A stretch of DNA of 64,000 bases, from positions 273,419,258 through 273,483,257 of the forward strand of contig CM041779.1 of NCBI GenBank assembly GCA_023374045.1, in the 5' to 3' direction. Below the pieces are notes generated by a model. The model was not told the origin of the DNA. It searched no databases and worked only from the letters and a program-made list of their open reading frames with translations. Positions 2,588 to 64,000 of the stretch are shown here, in pieces. A program made the translations under genes and the position numbers. This stretch comes from Limonium bicolor. Taxonomy: Eukaryota > Streptophyta > Magnoliopsida > Caryophyllales > Plumbaginaceae. The first letter of the stretch is position 1. Every line of letters begins with the position of its first letter.

Positions 2588-2654
2588 CTAATTGTCATAA
2601 GATTTATAAAAATTGGGGGTATAACGCAAGTGGAATTTAATAACCAACTCTACT

Positions 2655-2660
2655 TTTATT
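2655..2660 (-). promoter_or_regulatory. AATAAA poly(A) signal after AlkB gene (copy A)
   Basis: AATAAA on the minus strand lies about 70 bases after the AlkB stop codon and upstream of the pol splice acceptor. The same hexamer is in the same place in copy C (60545-60550). A functional role in ending an AlkB transcript is inferred. Confidence 0.5.
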
Positions 2661-2730
2661 GAATAAACCACCCATCATACACATTGTGTCTCTAATACAC
2701 ATTACTAATGCATTACATGGAATTACAAGG

Positions 2731-3502
2731 TTAATACTTTCTAAAGGTAAGGTTCAGGCGTCCTGGTTTCATGTGTGTGGCATTGATTATTGCCAGTGGT
2801 GCCATATTCAACTTGATCTTCTTGATCCCGTGATAAAGAAACCTTGATTTTTCACCCATGCTCAAGACATCTCCTGATCTCAATACCATTTTCTCTGCGT
2901 GGTCCACACACTTCTGCTCGCTATACAGGAATACCGCGTCATCAGGAACGGACCAAGACACTATGGGCACTCCTCGTTCAAGAGATTCTGTTGTCTCGTC
3001 CTTATCTTGGTGTAAGCCAAGTCGTCCTTCTTTCTCGTAGAAGTTGATGATACAAAGTCTGCTATAGGTTCTCTTGAGGGGCTAGTAGTATTTGGATGTT
3101 GTTTTTTTTTGGATCACCTTCACATTGTTGTGCAATTTCTACAGCTTGTGTAACAAGTGTTTAAAATTCGGTGGGTATTGTTAGTGGTGTCGCTCCGTCT
3201 TGCTTTCGTGTTGCTTGGAATGTCTTGGTATAAGGATTCAAATCCTTTCCCAAGCACATCATTTTCAGCTTCATCTTCGCTCCACCGGGGAATTCAGGTG
3301 TGTAAAATCCTCCTGGACCCGCTCCTAGTTCATTGCATCATTGGACGATGGCAATTTGTGCTTCGGGTGTTAGGTATCCTTTTAATAGAATCATACCTGG
3401 TCGGATAACCTGACACTGCTCGTCGGTGAAGTGGGGAGTGGTGATGTTAGTTTCTTCATGGTTTGGGTTTGAAGGTAATTGGGTAGCAGATATTAAATCT
3501 CC
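2731..3502 (-). pseudogene. AlkB-like 2-oxoglutarate/Fe(II) dioxygenase carried by retrotransposon copy A
   Basis: Sense-strand extra gene in the gag-pol intron of copy A. It has the landmarks of the plant ALKBH1-like AlkB group: MILLKGYLTPEAQI, GGFYTPEFPGGAK and KMMCLGKD in the N-terminal part, then CIINFYEKEGRLGLHQDKDE with the iron-binding His and Asp (His codon 3010-3012). Next comes YHGIKK with the distal iron His (2830-2832), then GRLNLTFRKY with the two Arg of the RxNxTxR 2-oxoglutarate motif. The catalytic half is open from about 3060 to the TAA at 2731. The N-terminal half carries two stops (after IAIVQ and after TEF), an early indel and a frame switch just before CIINFY. The start is set at a splice acceptor (CCTTAG|GG). 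An upstream ATG meets TAG within six codons, so splicing is the likelier entry. AlkB enzymes remove methyl groups from nucleic acid bases; the substrate here is unknown. Confidence 0.9.
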
Positions 3503-3658
3503 CTAAGGTTGTAAATTCATCTACGTGAGTTCTAGTTTCAACTAGTTCATTTCATGCTTAAATTCATACTTTAAGTGCTTACGCCTTCACGCATTCACTC
3601 AAACAGGTAATTCGATACTTTAGTTATGCTCTTCAAGGATTAAAGGTAATAGTTAGTA

Positions 3659-5116
3659 CCTAGGCCGGACTTAGTACCGGTCCCATCACGATCATTGATG
3701 TGCAAGGCTGGCTGCCTCTGCTGTGCGCCCTTATGAGCACCTCGGGACCCCTGTCCCTGTGAAGTATGCTGGGCCTCAGCGTCACCAAATGCAACCTCCT
3801 TGCCTTCTCGCTATTTATAGCCCTGGTAGTTGCCCTTGGGCTTCGAGTTGCTAGGGCATACATTCCCACGGTGCCCCGGTTTCTGGCAGTTGTAGCATCA
3901 GATCTCTCTTCCCTAGCAATCGGTGCCGGGGTGATCCTTGTTGCAATGACGGTAGACATAGTTATGACCATCACTTTAGTTCTTACCATAGCCAGAACCA
4001 GAACCTGTAGCTTCGAAGTTAGCAAGGTTCGGCATACTTACATTAATTCACTTGTATACTAATTCGGTTTTGGTTTCTTACCCTTGTAGGGCTGAGATCT
4101 CAATGGCTTCGCTGCCACTGGCACAGTGTAGGCGAGCTGCAACAGCTCAGCTGCCTTGCCCTTCTCAGCATGGGCACTGCTGTCTCTCGGGGTATTCTTC
4201 TGGTGCTGCTAGGTGAATTTCCCCTTCCTCTTCTTTTAGTTTTTACCTTGGCTTTGCTCCTCAGAGCTGGTGTTTTTGTTGTTTGCCTTGCGCTTGAGTG
4301 CTTGCTCTTTATCCCTCAGCTGGCATGTGATCTCAACACGGGATGCAGCATGATAGCACTCCTGGAGTTACTAGGTATTAGCTAACATTCTTTGTATACA
4401 AAGGATTAATTCACATAGACTACGACACTAAGGGTTTAAACGCTGTTTACCTGAAGTGAGGTAAACCGTGTGTACCCCATGCCATACCGGAGTCGATGGC
4501 TCAATCCGCCGTAGAAGCGGCCGACCAAGACCTGGCCGGTATACCCAAGGTCGGGTAGTAGTCTAAGAATAGAGGTGAATGTGCGGTAGTACTCATCAAC
4601 CGTCATCTTCTCCGTCATTTTGAGTGCGTCGAGCTCAAGACGCTTCTTGGTCTTGACATGCTCAGGGTAGTACTTGGATCGAAGGAGAGAGGTGAAAGCT
4701 TCCCAGTCAAATACGGGGTAAGCAATGTGCTCGACCTTAATGAGCTTCCACCAATCCATAGCCGCGTCCTTGAGATAGTACCCATCTATCCTCACCCTCA
4801 TTCCAGCAGGAGCCTCGAGGGTCTCGAAAGCCGTCTCCATCTCAAAGATATAGGACTCGAGTTTGGCAGGGTCGCTCTCGCCTCTAAAGTAGGGAGGTCG
4901 AAGATCAGTGACTCTCTTTACTCAATTTTTTTCCTGGGGTAGAGGTGGGTCGGGCGGTTGTCGCTGGTTTTGTTGTACTTGCTGCTGGGCTGCAGTCATT
5001 AGCTGGGGCAGCAGCTGTGCCACAGTGGCGGCGACGATCTCGGCGATCGTCTGCGTGCCAGGCCCCTCAGCAGGCCCTCCACGGCCTCCGCCGCGACCAC
5101 GTCCTCCGCCTGACAT
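3659..5116 (-). pseudogene. gag in three exons (copy A)
   Basis: Capsid and nucleocapsid gene on the minus strand, starting MSGGGRGRGGG at 5116. Exon 1 (5116-4451) holds the retrotransposon gag domain with DAAMDWWKL and SKYYPEHVKTKKRLELD. It has one TGA where copy C has Trp (C reads ANWVKA). A GT-AG intron (4450-4362, 89 nt) joins TSLQ to ECYHAASRVE without changing frame. Exon 2 (4361-4082) is a Lys/Gln-rich linker with two stops. A second intron (4081-4005, 77 nt) precedes exon 3 (4004-3659), which holds the CCHC knuckle CYNCQKPGHRGNVC. A third intron (3658-2588, 1071 nt) contains the AlkB gene and leads to pol. All three introns sit at the same places in copy C. The splice calls are by eye. 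Confidence 0.85.
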
Positions 5117-9842: not shown

Positions 9843-12047
9843 GCAGTCATCATCGGACACTCTGAACTCGAAATCCTGACCATAAGTAACCCTCTCCCTA
9901 ATCTTACACAATTCAGCATCGAGCTTCTAACTGGCCTTGATCCAGTCAATCAAGGTAGGCTAAACCTGCAGAGTAGCCAACATCCCAGAACTCTCTAAAC
10001 TAACAACCCAGACACCTAAATGCTAGTTGTAGCTCCAGCAAAGATCTCTGCACACCTGTCAGCATACAAACAACACCAGAAGGTCCTCAACAACTGAGAG
10101 TGTTAGCTACCACATTAACTCTATCTAGATGGTAGAGTATCTCCAAGTCGTAATCATGCAATAACTCTAGCCACCTCCTCTACCTCAAGTTCAGCTCCTT
10201 CTGAGTGAAAAGATTGTGGTCCGTATAAACCTTACATGTCGCACAAAATAGGTAGGGCCTCCAAATCTTTAAGGCGAACACTACTACTACTAACTCCACA
10301 TCGTGGGTCAAACAGTTCTTCTCATATGGCTTAAGCTGGTGCGAGCCATATGCAACTAACTTCCCATGTTGCATTAAAACATAACCCAATCCCTTATAAG
10401 ACGCATCACAGAAGACCCTTAAACCATCAGTACCCACTAAAAGAGTCAAAATAGGCGCTGATGTCAATCATTTCTTGAGCTCCTGAAAACACAGCTCACA
10501 AGCTTCACTCCACTCGAACTTCACTTCCTTCTACAGTAGACAAGTCAGGGGAGTCACAATCTTGGAGAAGCCCAGGACAAACTTACGGTAGTAGCCCACC
10601 AAACCAAGGAAACTACGAACTTCAGCAACATTGATGGGTCTATCCCACTCTGCAATCACCCTGATCTTCTCCGGGTCCATAGAGATGCCATCCTTGGAGA
10701 CTACATGTCCCAAGAAGACAACCTGATCCAACCAAAACTCACACTTCTTCAGCTTCGCATACAACTCTCTCTCTCTCAGAGTCTGAATCACAACCTCAGA
10801 TGCTCCTCGTGCTCCTCAACACTCTTGAAGTACACCAAGATATCGTCGATAATCACCACAATAAACTGGTCTAAAAATGGCTTGAACACTCGGATCATCA
10901 TGTCCATAAACACTAAAGGCGCACTCATCAGACCGAGTGGCATCACCAGGAACTCATAGTGACCATAGCAAGTTCTGAAGACTGATTTAGGCACATTGTC
11001 TGCCTTTATCCTCAACTGATGATAACCGGATCGGAGATCTATCTTCAAAAACACCGTGGCTCCAGCCAACTGATCAAACAAATCATCTATATATGGAAGG
11101 GGTATCGGTTCTTGATCATGACTTTATTAAGCACCCGTAGACAATACATAGCCGTAGACTACTGTCCTTCTTCTTGACAAACAGAACTGGTGCGCCCCAA
11201 GGTGACACACTAGGGCATATGAAGCCCTTGTCCAGCAGCTCCTGTAACTGAATCTTCAACTCCTTCAGCTCAGCAGGACCCATACGGTATGGGGAACTAG
11301 ATATAAGCTGACTCTCAGGTGCGAGCTCGATCTAGAACTCCACCTCTCTAACTGGGGGAAGCCCAGGAACATCATCTTGGAACACATTTAGCAACTCTAA
11401 CAACGGGAATGTCCACCAACTTCGCATCCTTACTGACCTCGGGGATGTAACAAAGGAACCTCTGACATCACTTCCTCAGATGGCAAAAAGCTTGCATCGC
11501 TGAAATCACTGGCGGTGAACAAGGGATTTTATTCCCTACTACAGACAAATGGGGCTTACCCGGCTCCTCAAAAGTTACTCTCTTAGCAAAACAGTCAATA
11601 TGGACATGGTGGGCAGCAAGCCAATCCATACCTAAAATCACATCAAAATTTGTCATCTCCATAGGGTTGAGATTAGCACATAGAATCCTATATTGCACTA
11701 CTTCTTCTCTACACATAGAATCCATAATCATGGAAGAGTTTATAACCAGGGGACTACGCACACATAACTCCACACCAAGAGACTCAATAGGAAAACTGAT
11801 CTCACCCACCAAATCAGCAGAAATAAAGGAGTGGGTGGCTCCAGAATAAAAAAAACAAAACATCGTTTGAGAAGACAGCTAGAGGATACATGTGACCACA
11901 TGGTCGGTCGACGGTCCCGTAATCTAGCCATCACGTACACCCTTGCCTGGGCCTTGGGCTTCCGGTCTCTGGACTCTGATGCAAATCCTCCAGTCTTACC
12001 TCCCAAACTTCCTCTGCTCCTCTCTACCTGAGGACAATCGGTGATGC
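9843..12047 (-). pseudogene. pol of element B: protease, RT, RNase H (integrase missing)
   Basis: Reading from 12047 down: the last residues of the gag zinc knuckle, a basic linker, then the protease near 11860. Its catalytic triad motif is YSGATHSF, with Tyr in place of the required Asp, followed by VILGMDWLAAHH. Reverse transcriptase (about 11300-10700) has [20 protein letters not shown] and a catalytic box [11 protein letters not shown]. RNase H (about 10467-10130) has VFCDASYKGLGYVLMQHGK and [16 protein letters not shown] linker then runs into the LTR of copy A at 9843. Frameshifts and stops break it into at least five pieces. The missing protease Asp alone would block maturation. Confidence 0.87.
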
Positions 12048-52684: not shown

Positions 52685-55600
52685 TGTAACACCCCAACCG
52701 CTAATCCTATGCTTATCATCTAATCGTCCTGTTAATCCTACGAGTTCGCAGCGGAAATTTTACTACTTACTACGGCGGGTGGTACAACGCCGCTAACCGC
52801 CCATACGGCTAGCTAGGCTTACCTTACTTACAGTCACGGTCTGATGCATGTAGTGTACCGAGCTACTAAATTACTTACCAAAATACCATATATCACATAC
52901 TTACATCCATGGATCACCGAGTATTTAAAGTATATTCAATTACAACCTTTCAAGCTTACCAAAAGAATGAGTTTCTAAGGCTACTCATCTATACCCCCAA
53001 TCCAATACTTCCACTAACCAAAAAGGTGTACCCCATGGTACACCGGCTAACAAAACGTACAGCCGTGTACTACTTAGTACACCAATCATGAATTCACTGT
53101 TTACAATCCAAAAGAAAGACAAGAAAATTAAACTTCAACTCTCCTAGTCTTCATCCTTCACGAGTACCTGCGTGTAGTAAAAAAATGGTGCCCCAAGGGG
53201 CTCAGCAAACGCTGCGTATAAACTCCGCATATACCGCGTGCTAGCTAGGGCACGCCGACTATTTGACGTCCACTAAACATGCTGTCCATTTATTTCATAC
53301 ATACATGCTTGCATACAACATACATTCATTCCAAGGCAACAATACAATAAAGCTCACAATACTTACCTTCACAAGGTTAGCCATATTATGCATCCGGGTT
53401 AATCGGAATGCTCATTACCCTTTTACTCATTGCACAATACTTACACATTCTCTTTCATACTTTACTTGCTTACCTTTCCATACTCATTTACTTGCTCTTA
53501 CTTACTCATACTTACTTACTCATACTCATGTTAAGCCGGTATGGCCTCTGGGCAGGGACTACACTGTCCCACCACCAGGCTTTACTTGACTCACCAATCC
53601 GGGATGCTACCCATTTAAGGGATTTGGGCCGCGGACCAGTTAAGAGTCAGGAATTGGAGCCAACCTCTCGTGACTCCGCATCCTCACGCGTGGCCGAAAC
53701 TATATCGGACTTCTACTCATTCCAATTTAATTACCAATTTAAGTTAGATTGGTTAGCTTGTTAGGAATAAGTTAGAAGTCCATTCACATTAACAATCGGT
53801 CACGATGCAATACAACATACATGCACACATTCATATTCATCCAAACATTTCATGAATTATACAAACTAAATTTGAAGACATTATACAACAATATACAACA
53901 CTACATATTCACAAGTAAACATGATAACTCCGATTCGTGCATTTATCTTATTTGGTGATCAATTAGCACACAACACACAAATCAGAGTAACCAAGATAGC
54001 ATACGGGGCATGAGGAATCCATACCGTTCACCGTTGTACGTGTTTCCAAACGTCCTTCGGTGTCACAAATCAAGTCCTATTATATACATACAATTGAATG
54101 ATTAATATACCTATCATCAACTTAACTCCTACTTACTATGTCCTTATACTTCTTACACTTACACTTTACTTTTTTATTTTTCATTACTTAAGTTTCACTT
54201 TCTTACTTAACATTGGCATGCTTACATACATGTACATATATATATATATGTAGGTATATACATATATATATATATATATTATTTAATTTAAATAATTTTT
54301 TTTTTGACCGGACCGGACTTGCGACCGACCTTGCAAGTCCGGTCCATTCCAGTAGCTCACATTACCGAATCTTTCTGGTCGACGACGAACTTGCAAGTCC
54401 GGTTGCAAGTTCGGTCCATTCCAGTAAGTTTTGGTTTCGAAATTCTGGAGTCGACCGACCTTGCATGTCCGGTCCCAAGGTCGGTCCATTCCAGTAAGTT
54501 TCGTTACAGGCGAATTTTAGCCCGACCGACCTTACAAGCCCGGTCACAAGGTCGGTCCATTCCAGTAGCTTACTCGACGGAAAATTTTTGAGTCGACCGA
54601 CCTTGCAAGTCCGGTCGCAAGGTCGGTCCATTCCAGTAGGTTACAGACGGGAGAATTTTCTAGTCCGACCGAACTTGCAAGTCCGGTCGATTCCAGAAGC
54701 TTTCCCGTCTTTGTAAATCTGGGCTCGACTGAACTTGCAAGTCCGGTCGCAAGTTCGGTCCGCCCCAGTATTTGCATTTTAATTTCTGTTTTCAGTCCCT
54801 CTTCTTACCCATTACTTCCCCATTGTTCCTACACTTATTCCCACATGTTTTAACACTAATTAAACCTCCTAATACACCTTAATTCATTCATTAACTCTTT
54901 ACACATTTCTATACTCATTCACTCACATAATTTCCCAAGTTTCATACAACACTCTCACTAGTCTCTTCTCTAGTTGCATTTTGCTACATATTTCTCTTCT
55001 AACTCTCCCCAACTATAACTCCCTCTTCTAATGTCATTTCTAACACCTCTAATACATTACAACTACATTAGCTATCTCTCCTAATATACCCTCTATCTTT
55101 CTCTAACAAAATCTGTTACACCCTACCTTATTCACCTAGTTTAAAATTCACTAAGTGTTCTATTCCTAGGTAAATTTTGCCATGGTCTCCCCTATATTTT
55201 TACACTCTCACCACATATTCTAGCTCACAATTCAACACTCATTTCACCTGTTTCAATAGACATCAATATACAAACCTTCATACACAATTCCTAAACACTA
55301 AACACTACTAAAAATTCCTACACATAATTACTAATCCCCAATCTGTTTGTAACAGTTTTTAAAATGTCATTTAAGGTTTTACAATCTTGTTTCTTCCTAC
55401 GCATTACACTACCAATGCATTACTATTTTACATTACATATTTTCATTTCTCAAAATCTGTTACACATTCATTTACAAGGCTACACAAGGAAGAGTGCAAT
55501 TACCTTGTTCCTTTACTAGCTTCTCCTTTCTTCTTCTTGCTTCTTCTTTTCCTCTTCCCCTCCTCTTCTTACCGGTTATAAACCAACTCTAACACTACAA

Positions 55601-56666
55601 CCCATACATATACATATTTCAATACACCATTTTAATACTAAAACTAACCCTAACCATTATTCAAGCTCTAATGTAGGTTTTAGGGTTTAGAAATTATATT
55701 ACCTTCCAAGAGTGCAAATGAAGCTTGGAGTGGTTCAAGAACAAGATTTCCAACTCCACCAAGATGCCAAAATCGGCTAGGATACAAGAGGCCAAACAAG
55801 GGTTTAGTCTAAAATTTGTTTTGCCCTTAAGGCTAGGAAGACAATGAAGTTTTGAGAATATTTTTACCTCAAAAGAACAAGGAGAAGGAGGGCCTTCTAA
55901 TGGTGGTGTTGAAGCTCCAAATGGGACATACCCATAAAAACAAAAGTTCTCCTTTTTGATTTTTGAAAAGAGGGAAATGTTGCTCTTGAGGAGAGGATGA
56001 CAATGGTGTAATTTTTACAATTTTTGGAGGAAGTTTAAGGGAGTAACAAGAGGAAAGAATGTGGAGTTTGTGGGGGTTGTTTCAAGCTTCCATGGCTGTC
56101 GCAGGGAAAGGAGGAAAGAAATGAGAGTGGGGGAGTGAGGCTGCTATACGTGAGAGAGAAATGAGAATGGGAGAGAGAGAGTGTGAGAGTAAAATATGTT
56201 ACTTTTTGAATTGTAATTGCTTTTGTCTTTTGTGAGTAAAAGGGAATAAAGAGAGGGTGTGAGTGGGGATGTGCAATCGGACACATACAGAACCCATAAG
56301 GGTTTTAAAATCCTTTTTACATTATTGGACACATAAGTTTGTGTTATTTATGTTTCTACCCCACAACTTCCCGTTTTTGACAGTTTTTACTAATTCCTCG
56401 TTTTCTTGATTTTATTGGTCTAAAGCTCACTAACATTTATTAATGATTATTTAGTTGACCAAAATTATTACGAGTCTATTTGACCCGCTTAAAGACACGT
56501 TTTCCTTACCTCGAAAAACGCGCTTTAAGGTTCGTTAGTGGTTTTAATCCGTTTTAAGGATCCGTTTTCTTTGGGATTTGTTCCCTCATGATTATTTATA
56601 CTTAATTAAGCTTCTAAATTATTTATTAGCCTAATTAATCACTATTTTTAATTACGGGGTATTTCA
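52685..56666 (-). repeat. 3' LTR of copy C (3982 bp)
   Basis: Complete LTR with TG...CA ends: minus strand TGAAATACCCC at 56666, ending GGGGTGTTACA at 52685. It is next to the polypurine tract on the coding side. It contains the CCCCAAGGGGCTCAGC block (53188), TATA-rich tract (54230-54285), hairpin array (54303-54770) and AT-rich remainder. No genes. Confidence 0.95.
54303..54775 (-). repeat. tandem GACCGACCTTGCAAGTCCGGTC array (copy C LTR)
   Basis: About seven units near 70 bp: ACCGACCTTGCAAGTCCGGTC, AAGGTCGGTCCATTCCAGTA, then an AT-rich spacer. As in LTR A, it lies directly upstream (in LTR direction) of a TATATA tract. Confidence 0.88.
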
Positions 56667-57116: not shown

Positions 57117-60100
57117 CTAGTCTATGAACAGCTGTGGGTACTTAGCCTTCATGGCATCTTCCAATTCCCATGTCGCTTCTTCGACATTATGGTTTGACCA
57201 TAGGACCTTCACCATTCGTATAGACTTATGGCGAGTGTCTCTGGTCTTCCTATCGAGGATTCTCAGTGGGGTTTCAACATATCTCATGTTTGGCTCAATG
57301 GATAAGTGCTCGGGCTCTAACACATGAGAAGGATCAGCAATATACTTCTTGAGTTGTGACACATGAAATACATCATGGACACGCCCCAAGTCCTCAGGTA
57401 GTGCTAACCTGTAGGCTACGGATCCAACTCTTTTGGTGATAGTGTACGGCCCTACAAACTTTGGGCTTAGCTTGCCCTTCTGACCAAAACGGAAGACACC
57501 CTTCATAGGTGAAACTCGCAAGAACACTTGGTCGCCCACGGCGAACTCAAGGTCGCGTCGTCTCACATCCGCATAGGATTTCTGTCTATCTTGGGCTGCC
57601 TTCATGTTAGCTCTAATCTGCTGCACTTCAGCTTGCACTTGCTCAAGATACTCCGGTCCTATTATGACCGCTTCACTTGACTCATCCCAACACAAGGGTG
57701 TACGGCAAGGTCTACCGTATAGAGCTTGGAAAGGCGACATCTTAATCGAGGCGTGATAACTATTATTATACGAGAACTCGATAAGATGAAGCTTATCTAA
57801 CCAACTCCCCTGAAAGTCCAAGGCACATGCCCGAAGCATGTCCTCCAGTGTCTGGATGGTCCTTTCTGTCTGACCGTCGTCTGAGGATGGAAGGCGGTAC
57901 TCAACTTCAATTCTGTACCCAACGCTTCCCTTGTAGCTCTCCAGTATCTCGAAAGAAATCTGGTGTCGCGGTCAGATACTATAGTCTTAGGGACTCCGTG
58001 GTGTCTGATAATCTCCTTATCGAAAAGCTCAGCTAGCTTTACTACCTTCCAGGTGTCCTTCATCGGTATGAATCTGGCAACCTTGGTAAGGCGATCGACT
58101 ACAACCCAGATCATGTTGAGTCCTCCCCTGGCAGGTAGTCCTACAACAAAATCCATGGAGATATCATGAAATTTCCACTCCGGAACTGGCATAGATTGTA
58201 CCATTCCGCCCGGTCTACGGTGTTCAAATTTTACCTTTGGCATGTTAGCATCTCAATACAAATTCCGTCACATCTGATTTCATTCCAGACCACCAGAAGT
58301 ACCTCTTCATGTCTTTGTACATCTTGGAGGCTCCCGGATGGACTGACAATGTGGAACAGTGTGACTCTCACAGGATGCGATCCCTTAGCTCAGCATTGCT
58401 TCGGGGGACGCATAACCTGTCATTCAACCGAATCAAACCATCTTCATGTAGCTTGAAGTCATACTTCTTCTTCTCAAATGTACCATTCTCGATCTTGTGT
58501 CTGATTTCGGTTAGGTAAGGGTCGCTCAACTGAGCGTCTCGCACCTCGTCAACCAAGCTAGAAGAAGCGAGTAGCGAATGGAGCGAGTGTGCTCGACGGC
58601 TCAGGGCGTCGGCTACAATGTTTGCCTTCCCTTCCTTATATTGCAAGTTGATGTCATAATCTGAAAGAAATTCTATCCATCTTCTTTGTCTCAGATTCAG
58701 TTCTTTCTGTGTGAATACATACTGTAAGCTCTTGTGGTCGGAGTAGATGGTGATGCTTACCCCATAGAGATAGTGTCGCCATATCTTCAAGGCGAAGACA
58801 ATGGCTCCTAACTCTAAATCGTGAGTCGGGTAATTCTCCTCATGCTTTTTCAGCTGGCGGGAGGCATAAGCTACAACCTTGCCATGCTGCATGAGTACGC
58901 ATCCCATTCCTTGCCTGATGCATCACAATATACCTCAAATCCCTCTGTGCCCTCTGGAAGAGTAAGGACGGGCGCTGAGGTCAATGAGTCTTTTAGTTTC
59001 TGAAATGATAACTCGCACTCGTGTGTCCATACAAACGGTGCATCTTTCTTCATCAATGTAGTCATGGGCTTAGCGACTTTCGAGAAGTCCCTTACAAATC
59101 TCCGGTAGTAACCGGCTAGACCAAGAAAGCTCCTAATGTCGGTAACAGTCTTGGGTCTAGGCCATGATCGTACAGCTTCTATCTTAGAAGGGTCAACCTA
59201 GATACCTGCGCTCGAGATGACATGTCCAAGGAATGATACCTGATCAAGCCAAAACTCGCATTTGAAGAACTTCGCATACAGCTGGTTCTCGCGCAGTGTC
59301 TCAAGCACTTTCCTCAAGTGAGTTTCATGTTCCTCTACTGATTTGGAGTATACAAGTATGTCGTCGATGAAGACAACCACAAAAGTGTCCAACTGCTCAC
59401 TGAATAAATGATTCATGAGGTCCATGAATTTAGCTGGTGCCTTCGACAAACCGAATGGCATCACTGTGAATTCGTAGTGGCCATATCTGGTACGGAATGC
59501 CGTTTTCTCAATGTCTTGTTCTTTGATTGCAATCTGATGATACCCTGAACGGAGGTCAATCTTGGAGAAGACTGAGGCTCCTTTCAACTGGTCGAATAGG
59601 TCGTCAATACGTGGTAGTGGGTATTTATTCTTGACTGTGACCGCATTCAACTTGCGGTAGTCAATACAAAGTCGGAGACTACCGTCCTTCTTCTTCACGA
59701 AAAGAACCGGTGCTCCCCAGGGTGATACGCTCGGGCGTATAAACCCCTTGTCTAGAAGGTCTCTTAACTGCTCTTTTAGTTCGGTCATTTCTGCAGGTGC
59801 CATGCGGTACGGTGCCCTAGCAATGGGACCGGTACCTGGCAATAGATCAATTTCGAATTCCACTGCTCTCGGTGGTGGCATGCCGGGTAGCTCCTTAGGG
59901 AATACGTCGGGAAATTCGGATACAATCGGTACCTCATCACTAAACTCTGGATCTCGCTCCAGGTCTTGTACATAACATAGATACACCTCTTGGCCCTTTT
60001 TGAGCTCCCGGTACATGGCCATAGCAGATATGAGTGTGGTCGAAGGCTCTCTCGGTCTCTGGCGGTAAGATACAGTAACCCCAGAAGGACTCTTGAGCAG

Positions 60101-60489
60101 CAAACGATGCTCGGCGCAGAGGATTCTACCCTTGTGCCGCTCTAACCAATTCATTCCAATGATTAAGTTGAATCCCAATCCACTGAATTCGATGAAGGAA
60201 ATGGGAAACGATTCGCCTTTGATTTGGATTGTGGCTGATTGATAGTACTTGGTGCACTTTACTCGCTCCTTCGATGGGAGAGTAACCATGAAGTTCGGTA
60301 GCTCATCCGCATCTAGCTTCAACCTCTTCACGAAAGATGGTGATACGAAGGTGTGAGAGGCGCCGGAGTCGAATAACACATTGGCATCAATGCCATTTAC
60401 TGGGAATGTTCCCGTTAAGATGGTGCCGCTTCTGCCGGCTTGTGCTTCGGTGAGGATGCTCAGGTTACCTTCGGTACCGAGTCCACAAC
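57117..60489 (-). pseudogene. pol: protease, RT, RNase H, integrase, chromodomain (copy C)
   Basis: Starts at acceptor CCAATAG|GTTGTGG. Protease has [10 protein letters not shown]. Reverse transcriptase (about 59900-59200) is intact, with [20 protein letters not shown] and [13 protein letters not shown] at about 59200 (SAGI-stop-VDP) breaks the frame. RNase H has a frameshift after CDASGK but keeps LELGAIVF and [11 protein letters not shown]. Integrase has its zinc domain (a 2-nt loss at the CxxC), MDFVVGLP and VSDRDTRF, then a frameshift in the DGQTERT-equivalent region. The last 240 codons (57839-57117) are open. They end in YVETPLRILDRKTR, VKVLWSNHNVEEATWELED and KYPQLF, the chromodomain-like tail of Tekay/Del chromoviruses, thought to guide integration to heterochromatin. 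Few lesions, but the product would not be full length. Confidence 0.92.
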
Positions 60490-60544
60490 CTATTGGATTC
60501 AAGTATTGATGGTGGACACAAGTGGAATTAAATCAACACTGCTC

Positions 60545-60550
60545 TTTATT
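60545..60550 (-). promoter_or_regulatory. AATAAA poly(A) signal after AlkB gene (copy C)
   Basis: TATCAATAAAGAGC on the minus strand, about 70 bases past the AlkB stop and before the pol splice acceptor. Conserved with copy A. It would let a transcript end after AlkB, excluding pol. Confidence 0.5.
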
Positions 60551-60617
60551 GATAAACCAACCATCATACATGCCGTGTCTCTAATACACGTTACTAAAAT
60601 TACATGATACTATGAAT

Positions 60618-61353
60618 TTAATACTTTCTAAAGGTAAGGTTCAGGCGTCCTGGTTTCATGTGTGTGGCATTGATTATTGCCGGCGGTGCCGTATTCAACT
60701 TGATCTTGTTGATCCCGTGATACAGCATCCTAGAGTTTCCACCCATGATTAGGACATCTCTGATCTCAATACCAGTTTCTGTGCGAGGTCCACACGCTTC
60801 TGCTCGCTATACAAATACGGCGTCATCACCAATGGACCAAGACACTACGGGCACTCCTTGTTCAAGAGATTCCACTGTCTCGTCCTTGTCTTGGTGTAAC
60901 CCAAGTCGTCCTCCTTTCTCATAGAAGTTGACGATACAGAATCCGCTTCAAGTGCGGGGATCGGTTCAGGTTCACATTGTCGTGCAAGTTCTACTACTGC
61001 TGTGACGAGTGTCTGAAACTCTGGTGGTATTGTCGGTGGCGTCGCTCCATCTTGTGTTCGTGTCTCCTGGTATGTCTTGGTATAAGGATTCCAGTCCTTT
61101 CCCAAGCACATCATCTTCAGCTTCATCTTCGCTCCACCGGGGAATTCGGGTGTGTAAAATCCACCTTGACCCGTTCCTAGCTCGTTGCATCGTCGAATGA
61201 TTGAAATTTGCGCTTCGGGTGTCAGGTATCCCTTTAATAAGATCATAACTGGTCGGATGACCTGACACTGTTCGTTGGTGTAGTCGTGGTTGGTGATGTC
61301 GATCTCTTCTTGATTCAAGTTTACCGGTATCGGGTAACAGATACTAAAGCTTC
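60618..61353 (-). pseudogene. AlkB-like 2-oxoglutarate/Fe(II) dioxygenase carried by retrotransposon copy C
   Basis: Extra gene between gag and pol, sense to the element. The N-terminal half is open from an acceptor at 61353 (an alternative ATG is at 61372): MILLKGYLTPEAQISIIRRC, GGFYTPEFPGGAKMKLK, MMCLGKDWNPYTKTY, PPTIPPEFQTLV. The catalytic core follows after a -1 frame change near 60950: CIVNFYEKGGRLGLHQDKDE with iron ligands His (60894-60896) and Asp (60888-60890), then VPVVSWSIGDDAVF. A 2-nt loss near 60810 shifts frame again before GDVLIMGGNSRMLYHGINK (distal His 60717-60719) and GRLNLTFRKY with both conserved Arg. About 245 codons, a single AlkB domain with no added domains. AlkB enzymes oxidatively remove N-methyl groups from DNA or RNA; an RNA-protecting role for the element is inference. 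This copy would not make a whole enzyme as it stands. Confidence 0.92.
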
Positions 61354-61508
61354 CTATGGTTATAAATTTCATCTACGGTGAGTACTAGTTTCAACTACTT
61401 CATTTCATGCTTAATACACACTACATTTTATTTACTCATGCATTCACTCATACAGTTACTCTACAACTTAGACATGCTATTTCAAGGATTAAAGGTTTAG
61501 ATTATTAC

Positions 61509-62990
61509 CTGGGCCGGACTTAGAACCGGACCCATCACGGTCAATCACATGAAGGACAGGCTGCCTCTGAGGTGCACCCCGCGGAGGTCCCCGGGATCCT
61601 AGTCCCTGTGGTGCCTGCTGGGTCGGTGCATCGCCCGATGCAACCTCCTTGCCTTCCCTCTGCCTGTAGCTTTGGTAGTTCCCCTTTGGCTTGGCATTTT
61701 CTGGGCAAAAATTGGCTCGGTGCCCGGGCTTCTGACAATTGTAGCACCGGATTTCTCTCCCTTGGCAATCCTTGTCGGGGTGGTCTTGATTGCACCTTCG
61801 GCACATGTAGCTGCGGCTGTCAGGATAGCTCTTGGTGGGACCGGAGCCAGAACCTAAGGTTTAGAGGGTTAGCACATTTGTGCGTGGATATACTAGATAT
61901 GGTACTGATATGAATACGAATTAGAAATAGAAGTTTACCTTTAGGTGGGTATGATCTCAGTGGCTTTGCTGCCACCGGTGCAGATGAACCAAGTTGAAGA
62001 AGTTCAACCGGTTTGCCCTGCTCAGCATGGGCACTGCTTTCACTCGGGAATTTCTTTTGGGATTGCTGAAAGAAATTTCCCTTCTTCTTTTTCCAGCTCT
62101 TACCCTGGTTCTGCTCCTCAGTACTGGTGTTTTTGTTGTTGGCCTTGCGCTTCAGCGCGGTCTCTTCATCCCTTAACTGGCAAGTGATTTCGACGCGAGA
62201 AGCCGCGTGATAACACTCCTGAAATCTCAGGTATTAGCCGGGATTCTCATTTCGGAAAGAATAAGGAAAAGATTCAAGGAATTTCAAGGAATTGAAATGA
62301 TACTAAGGGTTAACTGATATTTACCTGAAGGGAGGTAAATCTGGTGTAGCCCATACCGTACCGAAGGCGATGGCTCAGACCGCCATAGAAGCGATCGACC
62401 AACACCTGGCCGGTGTATCCTAGATCAGGGAGGAGACGGAGGATAGAAGTGAAAGTGCGGTAGTACTCATCGACAGTCATCTTCTCTGTCATCTTCAAGG
62501 CATCTAATTCTAGCCTTTTCTTTGTTTTCACATGCTCCGGATAGTATTTTGAACGGAGGAGAGATGCAAAGGACTCTCAATCGAATGTGGGGTCGTTGAC
62601 GTGCTCGTGCTTGACTAGCTTCCACCAATCCATGGCTGCGTCTTTGAGGTAGTAGGCTGCTACTCTGACTCGAACTCCAGCAGGAGCTTCGAGGGTTTCA
62701 AAGGCTGTCTCCATCTCGGAGATGTAGGCCTCTAGCTTAGTCGGATCACTCTCGCCCCTAAAGCAGGGAGGGCGGAGTTCCACTACAGCTTTTACCCAGT
62801 TCGCTTCTCTGGGTGGCGGGGGAGAGATTGGCCCCGCTTGAGTTTGTTAAAACTGTTGGGTTTGTTGCACGGCTTGGATTACTTGTGGTAGCATCTGCGC
62901 TACCTTGGCGGCGACGATCTCAGCTATCGTCTGCGCGCCGGGTCCGTCATTGCCCCCTCCTCTAGGGCGACCTGGACCTCTTCCTGACAT
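61509..62990 (-). pseudogene. gag in three exons (copy C)
   Basis: Starts MSGRGPGRPRGGG at 62990. Exon 1 (62990-62325) has the gag domain: CFRGESDPTKLEAYISEME, DAAMDWWKL, SKYYPEHVKTKKRLEL. It has two stops (TAA after QQTQQF; TGA after DPTFD where copy A has Trp), both explained by C-to-T or G-to-A changes. Intron 1 (62324-62219, 106 nt) joins TSLQ to ECYHAASRVE at a codon boundary. Exon 2 (62218-61939) is a Lys/Gln-rich linker. Intron 2 (61938-61854, 85 nt) leads to exon 3 (61853-61509) with CRRCNQDHPDKDC and the CCHC knuckle CYNCQKPGHRANFC. Intron 3 (61508-60490, 1019 nt) holds AlkB and joins SKSGPG to CGLGTEG of pol in frame. All introns are GT-AG and match those of copy A. Confidence 0.9.
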
Positions 62991-63184: not shown

Positions 63185-63212
63185 ATCAGAGCGTAACTAC
63201 GCTCTGATACCA
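63185..63212 (-). other. primer-binding site within a perfect hairpin (copy C)
   Basis: Primer site TGGTATCAGAGC (minus strand, 63212-63201), 5 nt from the LTR end. It overlaps an 11-bp perfect stem ATCAGAGCGTA/TACGCTCTGAT with a 2-nt loop (63185-63208), so most of the site can pair with the sequence just downstream. Confidence 0.88.
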
Positions 63213-63217
63213 CTTTT

Positions 63218-64000
63218 TGTAACACCCCAACCGCTAATCCTATGCTTACCGTCTAATCGTCCTGTTAATCCTACGAGTTCGCAGCGGAAATTTTACTACT
63301 TACTACGGCGGGTGGTACAACGCCGCTAACCGCCCATACGGCTAGCTAGGCTTACCTTACCTACAGTCACGGTCTGATGCACGTAGTGTACCGAGCTACT
63401 AAATTACTTACCAAAATACCATATATCACATACTTACATCCATGGATCACCGAGTATTTAAAGTATATTCAATTACAACCTTTCAAGCTTACCAAAAGAA
63501 TGAGTTTCTAAGGCTACTCATCTATACCCCCAATCCAATACTTCCACTAACCAAAAAGGTGTACCCCATGGTACACCGACTAACAAAACGTACAGCCGTG
63601 TACTACTTAGTACACCAATCATGAATTCACTGTTTACAATCCAAAAGAAAGACAAGGAAATTAAACTTCAACTCTCCTAGTCTTCATCCTTCACGAGTAC
63701 CTGCGTGTAGTAAAAAAATGGTGCCCCAAGGGGCTCAGCAAACGCTGCGTATAAACTCCGCATATACCGCGTGCTAGCTAGGGCACGCCGACTATTTGAC
63801 GTCCACTAAACATGCTGTCCATTTATTTCATACATACATGCTTGCATACAACATACATTCATTCCAAGGCAACAATACAATAAAGCTCACAATACTTACC
63901 TTCACAAGGTTAGCCATATTATGCATCCGGGTTAATCGGAACGCTCATTACCCTTTTACTCATTGCACAATACTTACACATCTCTTTCATACTTTACTTG
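63218..64000 (-). repeat. 5' LTR of copy C, inner 783 bp
   Basis: TGTAACACCCCAACC at 63218, nearly identical to 52685 onward. It runs past the window end; full length should be near 4 kb. Confidence 0.95.

Follow-up and report, generated by a model that had tools for sequence, protein, structure and literature searches.

Capture of an AlkB demethylase by a plant Ty3/gypsy LTR retrotransposon has been described in Phalaenopsis, where Tat/Ogre elements (2-ODD Gypsy, Gypsy_Pa_2799) are present in high copy and encode an ALKBH5-like AlkB with m6A RNA demethylation activity in vitro; of the 121 genomes surveyed there, the others had consensuses without such an AlkB domain, and Ogre elements are typically without an AlkB ORF (PMC9289625). 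The Phalaenopsis element is 25 kb long, has a tRNA-Arg primer binding site (PBS), encodes gag-pol in one ORF and keeps AlkB (565 aa) in a separate ORF2 (PMC9289625). Among other selfish RNA-based elements, the Alphaflexiviridae, Betaflexiviridae and further plant RNA viruses have also captured AlkB (PMC9289625). Regions separating gag and pol occur in Ogre and Bianca, and an intron between gag-pro and pol, removed from a subset of transcripts, has been demonstrated for Ogre; AlkB is not among the eORF domains named in the available part of that source (PMC6317226). Splicing in Ogre, EVADE and BARE has been reviewed, with the orchid AlkB cited; in the Ty1/copia elements EVADE and BARE it splits Gag from Gag-Pol output, in EVADE by excising the protease region to give a short Gag, with no extra enzyme mentioned in the available sections (PMC12786077).

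Here, a high-copy Ty3/gypsy LTR retrotransposon of Limonium bicolor with a captured AlkB is described. It shares an intron ahead of pol with Ogre, but unlike in Ogre, a non-chromovirus, this intron has a second acceptor for a coding exon, and gag carries two introns of its own. The Limonium element also differs from the Phalaenopsis element: it is about 14.5 kb long and has a chromovirus-type integrase end and a tRNA-Met-type PBS, its AlkB matches ALKBH1-like proteins in the PDB, and this AlkB lies between gag and PR as a predicted alternative exon with phases that join it in frame to gag. With its different enzyme subfamily, element type, position and expression mode, the element is apparently an independent AlkB capture. 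The first-pass annotation of the locus knew of no chromovirus family with an AlkB gene. None was found in a literature search of open-licence papers (titles and abstract openings); AlkB as such was already known in plant Ty3/gypsy elements (PMC9289625).

The element was delineated in the window, by which the whole analysed stretch of 64,000 nt is meant. The sense strand of element C is the minus strand of the window, and a profile search placed gag capsid, CCHC knuckle, PR/RT, RNase H, integrase and an SH3/chromodomain-like end in that order from about 62990 down to 57117, within one LTR-flanked element. In the following list a slash marks a splice point.

63218..64000, minus strand: 5′ LTR of element C, window part; the LTR runs 3203 bp beyond the window end.
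63201..63212, minus strand: primer binding site TGGTATCAGAGC, tRNA-Met type, located by motif.
62325..62990, minus strand: gag exon 1, capsid part (PF03732, E 9.6e-7, and ORFs); start approximate, spread over several frames in copy C.
62219..62324, minus strand: gag intron 1, with ends CTTCAG/GTAAATATC ... TTTCAG/GAGTGTTATCACG.
61939..62218, minus strand: gag exon 2, from the tblastn gag2 piece and junction motifs.
61854..61938, minus strand: gag intron 2, from junction motifs; missing from some other copies.
61509..61853, minus strand: gag exon 3 with the CCHC zinc knuckle (PF00098, E 8.2e-6); its 3′ end is the shared donor.
60490..61508, minus strand: intron 3, the gag-pol intron (1019 bp) holding the AlkB exon; donor GGCCCAG/GTAATAATC at 61509/61508, pol acceptor CCAATAG/GTTGTGG at 60490/60489.
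60618..61353, minus strand: predicted alternative exon for AlkB, a 2OG-Fe(II) dioxygenase, to its stop codon (PF13532 in two frames; acceptor AACCATAG/GAAGC; tblastn pieces).
60545..60550, minus strand: AATAAA motif 3′ of the AlkB stop, which may serve a Gag-AlkB mRNA as poly(A) signal.
57117..60489, minus strand: pol exon with PR, RT, RNase H, integrase, SH3 and a weak chromodomain, in several frames in copy C (PF08284, PF00078, PF17917 and PF24626 above cut-off).
52685..56666, minus strand: 3′ LTR of element C, TG...CA, 3982 bp; partner LTR 3986 bp.
2588..3659, minus strand: AlkB-containing intron of copy A, with interrupted AlkB pieces at 2734-3524.

As measured from copy C, the internal part is about 6.5 kb long. 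The primer site TGGTATCAGAGC is presumably of the initiator tRNA-Met type. The LTR pair of element C is flanked by the target site duplication CTAAC and has diverged by a K2P distance of 0.0119, which corresponds to an age of 0.46 or 0.85 million years at LTR substitution rates of 1.3e-8 or 7e-9. Within the LTR, a 61-nt repeat with palindromic GACCGACCTTGCAAG-type parts occurs about five times at window positions 54301-54774, at a spacing of about 71 nt, and repeats are present in the 5′ LTR as well. The sole other pol-like match found in the window was a Ty3-type RT stretch at 10666-11854 (minus strand), about 67% identical over its best parts, near which no AlkB match was found.

The chromovirus-type context proposed by the first-pass annotation is supported by the profile search and by the gag and PR/RT flanks in other copies, with a strong match to the Tf2-1-like SH3 domain (PF24626, E 2.3e-26) in copy C. 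In the same copy, the only one scanned for it, the chromodomain (PF00385, E 2.1e-4) scored 21.5 bits against a Pfam cut-off of 25.1, and the integrase core (PF00665) scored 28.3 bits against 32.6. On these profiles the element is classed as a chromovirus-type Ty3/gypsy element; its suspected membership of the Tekay clade is a guess from the LTRs of about 4 kb.

The presence of an AlkB fold signature on the sense strand was borne out by PF13532, which matched the minus strand of 60490-61508 with E 5.5e-25 in the second half and 8.4e-8 in the first half, in a different frame, and the motifs LGLHQDKDE, YHGI and RLNLTFR were all located in copy C. A plus-strand reading of the same interval was dropped, as none of its three frames matched any Pfam family at E 0.001. 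In copy C the reading frame of AlkB changes near 60960 and meets a stop near 60808, so that no one frame covers the gene and this copy, by its reading frames, is unable to make the enzyme. The AlkB block is not confined to this disabled copy: a degenerate-codon pattern for GLHQDKDE gave 16,571 exact matches in the 2.92 Gb genome and 0 when reversed. A profile search of the genome scored 150 of 38,325 candidates, and all 150 were above the cut-off.

Context was read in the first ten copies of the GLHQDKDE pattern list, which were not picked for quality and are all situated close to an end of contig 1. The order gag1-gag2-gag3-AlkB was found in 10/10, with PR/RT directly next in 9/10; in the tenth copy PR/RT was not found within the 6.9 kb read. 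AlkB was uninterrupted over the tested length in five of these copies and broken in the other five, a figure on which the prior requirement of a GLHQDKDE match bears. The family is estimated to occupy about 4-8% of the genome, the two values being based on the 6.5 kb internal part and the 14.5 kb complete element. AlkB matches were also seen in runs about 10.4-10.6 kb apart, for example at 1430339, 1440800, 1451251 and 1461716 of contig C1; this spacing equals the internal part together with one LTR, a sign that LTR recombination may have produced tandem arrays of the element.

Splice sites could be scored in 41 of 42 oriented copies. Both gag introns have GT...AG-type ends with few exceptions, their excision restores the gag frame in the displayed copies, and in one copy (L036) intron 1 is precisely missing. 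The third donor, AGGTA, occurs in 40/41 copies and ends one base into a codon (phase 1). An A/GG acceptor precedes AlkB in 38/41 copies and pol in 40/41, both acceptors supplying the two bases that complete the single-G codon of the donor, mostly to glycine, and a stop codon lies right behind AlkB in 38/41 copies. Since the phases of donor and acceptors match, Gag can be joined in frame either to AlkB, with its own stop, or to pol.

RNA that is spliced before reverse transcription leaves spliced copies, so that the splice prediction can be checked in the genome itself. The junction lacking gag intron 1 gave 747 genomic matches, the gag-pol junction 26 and the gag-AlkB junction 3, and each of the three reversed patterns gave 0. 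In all of the first 12 listed copies without intron 1, gag exons 1 and 2 abut, with the exact 12-nt exon remainder in 11 and 11 nt in one; intron 2 is also gone in four of the 12, and one copy (L049) is irregular. Twelve of the 26 gag-pol matches were inspected, again the first listed, and in ten of these AlkB is lacking and gag and pol abut. The interval 60490-61508, which the first-pass annotation had taken to be exactly the gag-pol intron, is in copy C the located donor-to-acceptor interval, and its junction occurs spliced in other copies. The gag-AlkB junction is abutting in all three matches, with the gag introns retained; two of these matches, with about 10 kb between them on the same chromosome, perhaps stem from a single event. 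For scale, the intact unspliced acceptors gave 10,029 (pol) and 2,402 (AlkB) exact matches, beside which the spliced copies, no more than 26 for gag-pol and 3 for gag-AlkB, are rare.

Copies without AlkB or without introns might instead be deletions, or descend from an older AlkB-free lineage. The gag-pol pattern by itself does overcount, as the remaining two of the 12 inspected matches (L058 and L064) are false: they still hold AlkB, and their pol acceptor reads ACCAGG. The other ten, however, show the junction as predicted and belong by sequence to at least two subfamilies, seven keeping both gag introns and three having neither, and together with the zero counts of the reversed patterns this makes an origin other than splicing very improbable. 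As read from their junctions, the spliced genomic copies represent RNAs of these kinds that were once reverse transcribed, and say nothing on how abundant such RNAs are.

Downstream of AlkB, an AATAAA motif is present in 36/41 spacers, against 19% in shuffled sequences. It has a near-fixed place in three clades (27/28, 6/6 and 2/2 copies), with only 1/5 in a fourth, and its conservation suggests a poly(A) site for a putative Gag-AlkB messenger.

The AlkB domains of two other copies, L003 and L012, matched PF13532 with E 1.4e-49 and 3.8e-49 and have the HxD...H...R......R residues. The nearest solved structure to L003 AlkB was 5XEG (E 1.9e-70 over residues 37-252), which we take to be the rice ALKBH1 protein; its other matches were bacterial AlkB (about 1e-22) and ALKBH1 (about 2e-11). 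The 21 PDB sequences matched comprised rice 5XEG, bacterial AlkB and ALKBH1 alone, with ALKBH5 absent among them. With plant host proteins, element AlkB is about 45-55% identical among the matches listed. The enzyme is accordingly best described as plant ALKBH1-like in sequence, an assignment made from PDB and named protein matches. With plant ALKBH1C/D and rice ALKBH1 (5XEG) it would thus share the dioxygenase subfamily and the catalytic core.

The substrate of such an enzyme is where another explanation has to be weighed. AlkB repair enzymes act on m1A and m3C, and the element protein could reverse alkylation damage of this kind in the template RNA or cDNA. A repair function has been discussed for the AlkBs of RNA viruses (PMC9289625), and the bacterial-type AlkB model NF011930 matches the element protein (E 8.3e-34), though at 116.9 bits well under its cut-off of 267. 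Its closest listed relatives are, in contrast, plant proteins that carry the database label DNA N6-methyladenine demethylase, which is annotation, with ALKBH1C/D-like proteins among the named near matches (best 120 of 1186 and of 2406). Repair is therefore considered rather unlikely.

Four database proteins (P0001-P0004), 59-71% identical to L003 AlkB and located on contigs of up to 26.6 kb, may be element AlkBs of other plants; the design of the cross-species search covered proteins up to about 630 aa. The predicted fold of P0001 has a pLDDT of 92.3. No relative was found in viral contigs. A careful AlkB tree without outgroup combined hand-picked listed proteins, with the genome's own gene and P0005 included, and 12 element rows out of the 31 that are intact. 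In this tree a branch supported at 100/100 separates the 12 element AlkBs and P0001-P0004 from 33 host-labelled plant proteins. It is preferred to an earlier tree, likewise with 12 element rows, that was rooted on E. coli AlkB and had 32 host-labelled rows, in which the element clade had the weaker support of 80/100 and the outgroup branch was very long. The outgroup-free tree gave no resolved host source within Limonium or Caryophyllales: it does not group the element clade with the ALKBH1-like gene of the genome itself, and a constraint joining the two was not rejected (p 0.198).

Within its catalytic domain, that host gene (L074, contig C3:702700-704420) is interrupted by two introns, one behind PEQV and the other behind GLHQ. 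Two more host ALKBH1-like candidates were noticed at C3:133828275 and C3:132821415. Unlike the plant ALKBH1C/D host proteins, from which its branch also separates it, element AlkB is intronless, lacking both introns of L074, so capture from a spliced RNA is likely, unless the introns were lost later. That the start of the AlkB exon was copied from a host exon boundary found no support, the FDIC motif lying inside an exon in the host gene.

Selection on AlkB was estimated from 31 intact rows, 26 of them from a profile-ranked set, which lowers dN in the estimate. Mean dN over mean dS was 0.13 for pairs with dS 0.4-0.8 and 0.11 for pairs with dS 0.8-3, single between-subfamily pairs gave 0.06-0.12, and close pairs (dS under 0.1) about 0.25. 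Between clades, 13 AlkB pairs gave a pN/pS of 0.20-0.30, and pol, which was long enough in 8 of the 13, gave 0.12-0.18; these ratios are rough since synonymous sites are near saturation. By these rough ratios, AlkB is under purifying selection between the subfamilies. Quick trees of AlkB and pol from 32 copies gave the identical four clades, paired differently in the two trees (SH-aLRT 89 for AlkB and 94 for pol); the careful AlkB tree pairs them like the pol tree. As the four clades are common to both genes, AlkB most likely predates the subfamily split and has been retained since.

The many broken copies, among them window copies A and C and half of the ten first listed, would suit a passenger, a functionless captured exon that spread by hitch-hiking. 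Against this speak the purifying selection seen between clades with nearly saturated synonymous sites, the clades shared with pol, and the conservation of the acceptor phase and of the catalytic motifs; the copies that were checked keep these motifs, L029 with an HQD variant context. A mere passenger is hence scarcely credible.

The reading we prefer, to which a probability of roughly 60% is given, is that a choice of splicing yields Gag, Gag-AlkB or Gag-Pol and that a particle-borne AlkB demethylates the cDNA or RNA of the element. A chromovirus-type element would have taken up a plant dioxygenase of the ALKBH1 type, the source probably being a spliced mRNA of a host, and kept it as an alternative last exon within the gag-pol intron. 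Splicing of the phase 1 donor at the end of gag to the AlkB acceptor would give Gag-AlkB, ending at the AlkB stop, and splicing to the pol acceptor would give Gag-Pol, in a division of output akin to that of EVADE and BARE; where the intron is retained, translation would stop shortly past the donor and leave Gag alone. Plant RNA viruses have their AlkB domains in replicases, in contrast to the place behind Gag in the Limonium element. Fused behind the capsid and zinc knuckle of Gag, AlkB should enter the particle and reach the nucleic acid of the element, where it would most likely strip N-methyl groups from single-stranded cDNA or RNA. We infer from the sequences that Gag-AlkB would be translated, packaged and active, and that its substrate would be a methylated base of this kind.

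Rice ALKBH1 has 6mA activity on ssDNA in vitro and affects R-loops and PRC2 repression, according to the available part of PMC10469495. By analogy with this nearest studied relative, 6mA in single-stranded DNA is a plausible target at least as much as RNA. The role suggested by the first-pass annotation, in erasing methyl marks or in repairing the RNA of the element, is plausible. The same protein, through its action at R-loops and against PRC2 repression (PMC10469495), also lends itself to a different explanation, in which 6mA or m6A at element loci or in host transcripts would be removed by Gag-AlkB, or by a cleavage product of it, and silencing thereby eased. ALKBH9B, which frees ONSEN RNA from stress granules in Arabidopsis according to the available sections of PMC12786077, fits with such a role on host RNA or chromatin. 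The fusion to a Gag with a zinc knuckle favours the particle or the element RNA instead, and action on the host is regarded as unlikely.

A more specific form of the preferred reading, particle-borne demethylation governed by splicing, can be put forward tentatively, although we lean against it in full: a three-way splice switch would pack an ALKBH1-type ssDNA demethylase that erases N6-methyladenine from nascent cDNA or genomic RNA, was kept through the split of at least four subfamilies, and helped the element to reach more than 16,000 motif-bearing copies.

With the Limonium element, plant Ty3/gypsy elements have apparently captured an AlkB demethylase for a second time, and such recurrence is an argument for the importance of base N-methylation in the conflict of plants with their retrotransposons. 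One donor with two in-frame acceptors is a clear model for housing a new gene in an intron while gag-pol stays unbroken. The ALKBH1 type of the enzyme, finally, makes a contested question testable, namely whether DNA adenine methylation, beyond that of RNA, is a barrier to plant elements.
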